NCBI GenBank assembly: GCA_013153395.1
Contig: JAADEL010000049.1
Location: 1-36,877, forward strand
Direction of reading: 5' to 3'
From: Microcaldota archaeon
GTDB lineage: Archaea; Micrarchaeota; Micrarchaeia; Anstonellales; J096
Length of the DNA: 36,877 nt
The notes beneath the pieces were generated by a model. That model was not told the origin of the DNA, made no database searches, and saw only the letters and a list, made by a program, of their open reading frames with translations. The number at the start of each line of letters is the position of its first letter. Positions within the stretch are counted from its first letter, which is position 1. This document shows, piece by piece, positions 22,037 through 24,489 of the stretch. Both the position numbers and the translations under genes were made by a program.

Positions 22037-22066
22037 ATTTACATAAGGAAAATAAGGTTTTAAAGG

Positions 22067-22152
22067 TGGAGGGGGTGGGATTTGAACCCACGAACCCACT
22101 ACGGGACCAGGTCTTAAGCCTGGCGCCTTTGGCCTGGCTTGGCTACCCCTCC
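22067..22152 (-). tRNA. tRNA-Leu (anticodon UAA), CCA not encoded
   Basis: Reverse strand GGAGGGGTAGCCAAGCC...CCAGG-CTTAAGA-CCTGG...GTGGG-TTCAAAT-CCCAC-CCCCTCC-A; 7-bp acceptor, long variable arm. Confidence 0.95.
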
Positions 22153-22197
22153 TACCACTATTTACCTCTAAAACCTTTTTAAATTCCACGGTATATA

Positions 22198-24489
22198 ATG
22201 CTTATAATCATGGATACGAAAAAGAAGCTGGAATTGTTAGGTAAGCAGATGGCTGAGCAAATCCTCCAAGGAAAATCTCCCACCTTCAAAACCAGGGTAA
22301 GGTCAAGGTCTAATGTGGTGCTAAATGATGGGATTTTAACGTTGGGAGAGCGATGGGAGGAGAGAACCTTTGCCAATGTTTCACAAGCCAAGATCTTTAT
22401 GCAAACGATGGCGGTAGCCAGCAAGCTAAAGAGCTTTCTTGACCAAGGACTCCACACCAGTATACGAGGCCTCTATTATCAGCTGAAGTTTAGCCTTGGA
22501 GAGGATCTAGACGAAAATCTCTTCGATGAACAGAGCGAGAGTAATGCGTTAGTGGAGGATTTAGAGGCGGCATTGGGTGTGAAACGAGAGGACTTCAATC
22601 TCACTACCGATAGAAAGGGTGTATTAGCAGGACCTATAAAAATCATAGATAGATTTGGAGGAGAGGAGGTAGTTATTGACGGAACAAAGATGGGTAGAAG
22701 CGGATGGATGATTCCTTCGGATGTGGATAATGACATGGAGATAAAAGAGGTGGATGCCAACTATGTGCTGGTGGTGGAAAAGGATGCACTCTGGCAACGT
22801 TTGAATGAGGACCGCTTTTGGGAGAAAGAAAAGGCCCTTCTGATCACCCCAAAAGGACAATCATCTCGTGGAACAAGAAGGTTGTTGAGAAAGTTAGCCG
22901 ATATGGGTTTGCCCATCTATGTGTTTAGCGTAGGGCCTGATACCTGGATTACCATTTATACTAAAGACAAAGTAGGGTTAAGGAAGATCTCCCAGCTTAA
23001 GGCAGGGGACGAGGTGTTTGATGGATTTGCAAAAAGGAGCGATAGTCCTTATTACTCAGAAGGAGTATCTCCAGCAGGCAGAGTATGGATAGTAAAGATA
23101 GGGCAAGTGGTGGAACATGAGCATAACGGAAAGATGTTTGAGATTGTGAACAACCAGGGAAAAAGCATCTGGGTAACAGAAAATCATTCTTTGATTGTGT
23201 TTAATTCCAGATTGTTTGTGATTGGGGAGAAAGTACCCGATGATATCACCCATTGGGACTATGGATTGGTGAGATATCTTCCCAATATGGAGATGTTAAC
23301 AGAATGGGAGGGAAAAAAGATTACCAAGGCCTTCATGATAAAGCTGGCTCTAAGCTGGGCTCCCGAGATAAGAAAGAGAAAATCGGTGGAGAAGCTCCTT
23401 CAAAAGCACAGGATTTCTTATAAAGAGGGAAAGCATACGTTGGAGCTAAAGGAAAAACTTCCTCTTCAGCCATGGGCGGATGAAGTGCTCAACATGCCCT
23501 ATAAGGAGGAGTTTATAAAGGCTTACTTCCTAGCCTATGGACAAAGAAAGTATGGCGGAATAACAGTAGAAGTCAGCGATGAGAGGGCCAAGGCAGTATT
23601 GACCACCTTGCTTGATCAACTCGACATAGACTACAATGCTTTAGATGACCAGATCACCTTAAAGACCTCCTTCCAATCGATAGAAAAAGGAAAGTTCCCT
23701 AAAATCAAGTTCCCGCTGAAGTTGTTCAAATCAGTGGAGTACCTCTTTAAGCTCAAGTATAAGAAATCCCTTCATAAGCTGGAGAAGCTTTCCCTGGAAG
23801 AATTCCGCGATTTTATCATGAATACTCCGCCTTCAAAGACCTATTGTTTGCTGGAGGATTGTAAGGAGGGGATTTCTCCTCCTATGCGGAAGCGGGCAAG
23901 AGATGTGTTGTTCAAGCAGAAGCTTATCACAAAAACCGGACGCTTAACCAATAAAGCCTTAAACATGCTTAGGAAGCTGGAGTTGTTGGAGAATATGGTA
24001 AGGCATAGGGTGGTGCCCCAGAAGCTTAAGATTGCCCGCGTCAAAACCAAGAAAACCAAGGTGTATGATATCTCGTTGCCGGGTGTAGGCACCTTTTTCG
24101 GGAATAGTATCGCTGTGCACAATACCGATTGTGATGCTTGGGGATGGTATATATATTGGACTTTGAAAACAGGCTCTATCAATCTTGCCTATCTAGGAAA
24201 AGAATTCACCGTACCAGAGGCCAAGTTTATTGGAGTGACGATGTCCGACATAGAGAAGTTCCCATTCTTAAAAAAGCTCACCATAAAGGCAAAAGAGGTA
24301 GACCTAAAAAGGGCTCAGGAGATGCTAAACTATCCTTGGATTAACAAGCATCCAGAATGGGTGAGAGAGCTTGAGCTTGTGCTTAAAACCAAAAAGAAGC
24401 TAGAGCAAGACGCCCTTCAAGGGCAAAGACTTACCTTTGTAGGAGAATACGTGAAAAAGAAAATAGAAGAGCAGGATTTCTTACCTTAG
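22198..24489 (+). CDS. top6A: DNA topoisomerase VI subunit A (Spo11-like), interrupted by an in-frame intein
   Basis: N-extein TSIRGLYYQLKFSL (catalytic Tyr region), VVEKDALWQRL (Toprim Glu), LPIYVF; C-extein TDCDAWGWYIYWTLKTGSINLAY. Likely start at the ATG at 22210. Confidence 0.95.
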   Translation: MLIIMDTKKKLELLGKQMAEQILQGKSPTFKTRVRSRSNVVLNDGILTLGERWEERTFANVSQAKIFMQTMAVASKLKSFLDQGLHTSIRGLYYQLKFSLGEDLDENLFDEQSESNALVEDLEAALGVKREDFNLTTDRKGVLAGPIKIIDRFGGEEVVIDGTKMGRSGWMIPSDVDNDMEIKEVDANYVLVVEKDALWQRLNEDRFWEKEKALLITPKGQSSRGTRRLLRKLADMGLPIYVFSVGPDTWITIYTKDKVGLRKISQLKAGDEVFDGFAKRSDSPYYSEGVSPAGRVWIVKIGQVVEHEHNGKMFEIVNNQGKSIWVTENHSLIVFNSRLFVIGEKVPDDITHWDYGLVRYLPNMEMLTEWEGKKITKAFMIKLALSWAPEIRKRKSVEKLLQKHRISYKEGKHTLELKEKLPLQPWADEVLNMPYKEEFIKAYFLAYGQRKYGGITVEVSDERAKAVLTTLLDQLDIDYNALDDQITLKTSFQSIEKGKFPKIKFPLKLFKSVEYLFKLKYKKSLHKLEKLSLEEFRDFIMNTPPSKTYCLLEDCKEGISPPMRKRARDVLFKQKLITKTGRLTNKALNMLRKLELLENMVRHRVVPQKLKIARVKTKKTKVYDISLPGVGTFFGNSIAVHNTDCDAWGWYIYWTLKTGSINLAYLGKEFTVPEAKFIGVTMSDIEKFPFLKKLTIKAKEVDLKRAQEMLNYPWINKHPEWVRELELVLKTKKKLEQDALQGQRLTFVGEYVKKKIEEQDFLP
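22927..24123 (+). mobile_element. Intein (about 399 aa) within Top6A
   Basis: Starts SVGPDTWITIY...KAGDEVF (block A), IWVTENHSLIVF (block B), ends VYDISLPGVGTFFGNSIAVHN (blocks F/G) followed by +1 Thr. Removal joins LPIYVF to TDCDAWGWYIY. Confidence 0.95.

Follow-up and report, generated by a model that had tools for sequence, protein, structure and literature searches.

The gene for subunit A of topoisomerase VI (Top6A, the DNA-cutting subunit) in a small-genomed archaeon is interrupted by an intein just 5' of the metal-binding site, which raises the question whether this insert is still spliced, whether it is still mobile and whether it may regulate the enzyme. The gene lies in a stretch of 36,877 nucleotides, which is called the window here. 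Our analyses point, with a high degree of confidence, to a class 1 intein (Ser1, Asn-cyclising, Thr+1) that would be competent for splicing, has apparently lost its ability to home and is inherited together with its host gene. The precursor and its splicing elements are arranged as follows:

22198..24489, forward strand: Top6A precursor gene, 763 aa, stop codon within the coordinates
22198..22926, forward strand: N-extein, 243 aa, with the winged-helix part, the YY pair 93-94 and the Toprim Glu E194 (Pfam and PDB alignment)
22927..24123, forward strand: intein, 399 aa, Ser1 to Asn399 (PF14890, TIGR01445 and TIGR01443 above cut-off; empty sites in relatives)
22927..22929, forward strand: Ser1, first splicing nucleophile (invariant in all six same-site inteins)
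23176..23187, forward strand: block B, T84-x-x-H87 (T and H do not vary among the six same-site inteins)
24067..24069, forward strand: block F Asp (VYD; alignment with relatives)
24118..24123, forward strand: C-terminal His398 (24118-24120) and Asn399 (24121-24123; sequence)
24124..24126, forward strand: Thr+1 (sequence)
24124..24486, forward strand: C-extein, 121 aa, opening with Thr+1 followed by the Toprim D644-x-D646 (Pfam and PDB alignment)

The frame at 22198-24489 on the forward strand reads through 763 codons with neither stop nor frameshift. The flanks of the insert match PF04406, PF20768 and PF21180 (Pfam) and comprise a type IIB N-terminal domain with YY93-94, the pair that in this family contains the catalytic Tyr, and a Toprim domain with E194, D644 and D646. 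When aligned with the solved Top6A 2zbk_A (PDB), the precursor matched with its residues 18-243 and 643-762, two blocks that abut at residues 259 and 260 of 2zbk_A and lie 399 residues apart in the precursor. The middle 399 residues scored 40.0 bits with PF14890 Intein_splicing (Pfam, cut-off 35.8), 29.6 with TIGR01445 intein_Nterm (NCBIfam, cut-off 24.5) and 26.2 with TIGR01443 intein_Cterm (NCBIfam, cut-off 15.6), so that splicing profiles match both ends, as in class 1 inteins with a Hint domain. Excision joins LPIYVF to TDCDAWGWYIY, which is the Toprim DxD loop, and the alignment of the joined extein with the uninterrupted Top6A of the nearest complete relatives from the same genus and family covers the full length (75-79% identity). 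Three genomes of the same genus contain the empty site (P/K)IYVF-TDCDAWGW with 79% identity across the joint, marked here and below by the hyphen. A sequence-only reading of the window had placed an intein at 22927-24123, which proved exact to the base, and had named Top6A as host, as the flanking domains and the two-block alignment confirm. Its location of the site directly before the Toprim DxD (T643, then D644-x-D646), its assignment of Ser1, a C-terminal HN and Thr at +1 (S1, H398, N399 and T+1) and its expectation that excision restores the DxD were likewise borne out, the latter by the three empty sites.

In class 1 inteins, an N-O shift at Ser1 is followed by transesterification to Thr+1, cyclisation of Asn and an O-N shift. 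In the Top6A precursor, the two splicing halves would fold together after translation, Ser1 would form the ester, Thr+1 would attack it and Asn399 would cyclise, by which the exteins would be joined from F243 to T643 and the Toprim DxD loop would be restored. In block F, the Asp is kept, whereas the His of the relatives is Gly in the window's intein; Asp and His are common but not universal at this place in inteins. The intein is expected to splice, judging from its residues, though perhaps more slowly given the Gly in block F. A single-sequence fold prediction was too poor to interpret (mean pLDDT 39.8). The missing His, together with the draft state of the genome (631 kb in 49 contigs, 83.7% complete), could also point to a dead gene or an assembly artefact, from which nothing is spliced. 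We consider this very improbable in view of the open frame of 763 codons, the conservation of the other splicing residues, the host-like composition, the five further genomes with an intein at this site and the presence of Top6B. G+C is 0.436 inside the intein compared to 0.46 in the window, and this host-like composition gives no sign of a recent foreign arrival.

The window also carries an archaeal 23S rRNA and tRNA-Leu, and Top6B is encoded on a different contig of the same genome. A comparison of the gene neighbourhood (window 22065-24489) with loci L042-L044 and L034-L037 showed that Top6A adjoins tRNA-Leu in the window, that in three genomes of the same genus it is flanked by a SufB-like/thioredoxin-like pair on one side and by a 2-oxoacid oxidoreductase beta-like gene on the other, and that Top6B is directly upstream of Top6A in more distant relatives only. 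The host genome additionally encodes a gyrase/topo IV-type A subunit, and therefore topoisomerase VI may not be its sole type II topoisomerase. Gyrase is reported to occur in most Woesearchaeota (PMC9348778).

The middle of the intein contains traces of what was probably a homing endonuclease:

23506..23544, forward strand: remnant of the second LAGLIDADG motif, EEFIKAYFLAYGQ (EFLRGYFRGDG in relatives, acidic residue changed to Tyr; alignment)
23866..23970, forward strand: possible winged-helix remnant between the endonuclease and the C-terminal splicing half (weak; PF24409, E 0.016)

No LAGLIDADG domain was matched by Pfam in the window's intein, even at E 1. In the alignment with the relatives, the first motif is missing and the second reads AYFLAYG compared to GYFRGDG, so that the two catalytic acidic residues of a homing-active LAGLIDADG enzyme are not both present. 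The four complete inteins at the same site in relatives, in contrast, match LAGLIDADG_3 with E values between 2.5e-15 and 5e-19 and contain the motifs GY(Y/F)VAEG and GYFRGDG; their endonucleases look intact. With its 399 residues, the intein is degenerate rather than minimal. The match to a winged helix in the linker is suggestive only, and the relatives have weak MarR_2/GntR-like matches near the same place (best E 1.8e-4). Loss of the endonuclease with retention of splicing is known as an end phase of the homing cycle (PMC4071816). We infer that the Top6A intein homed in the past: the first invader of the site was probably a LAGLIDADG-bearing intein that recognised the highly conserved DNA coding for TDCDAWGWYIY. 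In the window, the endonuclease has decayed at the level of its sequence, and the element would no longer home. The intein may persist because its removal must be exact and a loss of splicing would cost the cell Top6A.

Occurrence of the insert beyond the window was surveyed with the joined extein as query, for which class and phylum both returned 303 genomes, and genomes with low scores or two Top6A matches were re-examined individually. Top6A was matched in 279 of the 303 genomes, and among the matches listed, at least six of these 279 genomes, the window's own included, carry an insert at the residue that is interrupted in the window. A long open insert splits Top6A at this residue in G040, G048, G080 and G097; these four complete inteins have 546, 546, 564 and 542 aa, respectively, begin with S(V/I)DA and end with LLLHN-TDCDAWGW. 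In G294, the insert at the same residue is cut off by the contig end. With inserts at one residue in at least six genomes, chance is excluded, and the presence of inteins at the exact spot in five relatives indicates a genuine selfish element of an ordinary kind. No intein was found at any other position of Top6A among the matches listed. Apparent splits of Top6A in G103, G190, G191, G224, G235, G247, G298, G300 and others lie where a contig ends or where a circular sequence was joined; at the split in G228, no intein is seen. In G097 (L039), the residue before Ser1 is Cys (LPIYVC-SIDAEE), where the remaining Top6A inteins from this order have Phe, and it may be a redox-sensitive neighbour.

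The decapeptides with the highest conservation in Top6A lie immediately beside the intein site, as homing predicts. At 30 uninterrupted Top6A loci that were read at the joint, the +1 residue was Thr in 20 and Met in 10 (L007, L014, L020-L023, L025, L027, L029 and L030), next to the invariant D-x-D, and the corresponding residue in G228 (L041) is Asn. All five intein-bearing genes in which the C-terminal side is known have Thr at this position. Since Met is unable to act as second nucleophile, sites with Met at +1 should be closed to such inteins, and, as far as their sequence tells, sites with Met, or with Asn as in G228, should be immune to inteins of this kind.

The sequence-only reading had proposed that splicing could couple Top6 to cellular conditions, which goes further than the evidence. 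In this view, the intein in the catalytic loop would splice conditionally and thereby switch topoisomerase VI after translation, and it would have been kept for this purpose although genus-mates lack it. Unspliced Top6A should be unable to hold metal ions, and the precursor should consequently be inactive; conditional splicing is moreover documented for other inteins, for example that of mycobacterial DnaB (PMC6195587). However, inspection of the residues showed that the splicing centre has Ser and Thr as nucleophiles and no Cys; the intein has just two Cys (307 and 312), both in the linker that separates its splicing halves. The scattered presence (at least six of 279 Top6A-bearing genomes) and the absence from genus-mates fit a mobile element, and inteins usually insert at conserved catalytic motifs without having a regulatory role. 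We find no support for regulation by splicing beyond the position of the insert, and a switch function appears highly unlikely.

The descent of the window's intein can be read in two ways. A comparison of this intein with the others of the phylum gave the Top6A intein of G294 as best match (E 1.6e-7) and the intein of a myo-inositol-1-phosphate synthase-like protein as the second; with self-matches set aside, the Top6A intein of G040 came fourth (E 0.0017). A profile built without the window's intein placed it below inteins of other genes, on rank 22 for the N-terminal half and outside the best 22 for the C-terminal half. In the tree, the other five Top6A inteins group together (87/90), whereas the window's intein lies outside on a very long branch. 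Together with the second-best match, in which the myo-inositol-1-phosphate synthase intein is joined to the extein as HN-TDFLGM, these results allow for two independent invasions, in which the window's intein would come from another lineage, for example from a different gene in which the joint is followed by a T-D motif. Such a second origin is quite conceivable, although we do not favour it: the window's intein has both its best match in the phylum and its nearest rows by tree path among Top6A inteins, and a single clade of all six same-site inteins was not rejected (p-AU 0.109, with the window's intein on its very long branch). Two invasions would leave the conclusions on splicing and lost homing unchanged. 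The other complete Top6A inteins share 47-54% identity compared to 74-82% in their exteins (leaving out the close pair G040/G048), and this lower identity of the inteins does not indicate recent spread.

Searches for kin of the intein found none in viral contigs and none in phages, and in plasmids one weak match, to the endonuclease region of the G040 intein. The sole match in an intein scan of GTDB genomes was a distant intein in a HerA-like ATPase of a woesearchaeote (L033, SKIS01000040.1). An open reading frame of 257 aa with a weak match to intein residues 253-360 was discarded as similarity between charged helical sequences. A search of the host genome with the PF14890 profile found no second intein; in the phylum, PF14890 matched in 189 of 303 genomes, with 12 or more matches in several and many genomes of only about 1 Mb, compared to the count of just one in the window's genome. 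Hosts of these other inteins, as named by reading their sequences, include a DegT-like aminotransferase (L081, G069), the archaeal release factor aRF1 (L079, G280), a Cdc48-like AAA ATPase (L113, G281) and the myo-inositol-1-phosphate synthase-like protein (L077, L119 and L121 in G076, G035 and G026, respectively). The joint of the latter, GGN-S...HN-TDF(L)xM, resembles that of Top6A in its Ser1, its HN and a Thr+1 that precedes an Asp. Outside Top6A, the closest relative of the larger Top6A inteins is located in an XPD/Rad3-like helicase (L109, G016).

The same-site inteins of G040, G048, G080, G097 and G294 (cut off) share the insertion residue and Ser1 with the window's intein, and the four complete ones also share HN-TDCDAWGW; they differ from it in length (542-564 aa), in the presence of LAGLIDADG_3 and in sequence, with approximately 30% identity. 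The best match of the Top6A intein profile among solved structures is PI-PkoII, the DNA polymerase intein of Thermococcus kodakarensis (PDB 2cw7/2cw8), with an E value of 1e-31 for a profile that is dominated by the larger Top6A relatives; the window's intein alone gave no match to PI-PkoII in the PDB search. PI-PkoII has Ser1 and a C-terminal HN like the Top6A inteins and differs from them in its host gene and from the window's intein in its full endonuclease. Presumably, it adjoins the TDG of the polymerase motif YxDTDG and thus likewise precedes a T-D at a metal-binding Asp. Inteins were also described in halobacterial Top6B (PMC4071816), which belongs to topoisomerase VI as well but is the ATPase subunit B, so that the insertion site is different from that in Top6A. 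Before tree building, inteins were removed from several Top6A and Top6B sequences in a study from 2022, the main text of which gives no site, organism or subunit (PMC9348778). A full-text literature search, to which InBase and most subscription papers are closed, found this study as the one paper that mentions Top6A together with inteins, and no description of the Top6A site. The sequence-only reading had known of no Top6A intein from this site; with respect to the literature this still holds for the site, whereas the intein is not unique, given its five same-site relatives, and inteins in Top6A sequences had been noticed before. As far as seen, the Top6A site is a recurrent insertion site that has not been described, and the element itself is of an ordinary kind.

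With this site, the Toprim DxD loop of Top6A joins the catalytic motifs known to be invaded by inteins. The best NCBIfam model for Top6A scored 374.5 bits on the intein-bearing precursor compared to its cut-off of 465, and since such genes fall below the curated cut-offs of full-length models, they may be missed or misread in annotation. About one third of the inspected empty sites have Met at +1 and should be unable to host an intein of this type. As the Top6A site occurs within a single archaeal phylum with an intact-looking endonuclease, with a decayed endonuclease and in the empty state, it could allow the whole homing cycle to be followed at the same place.
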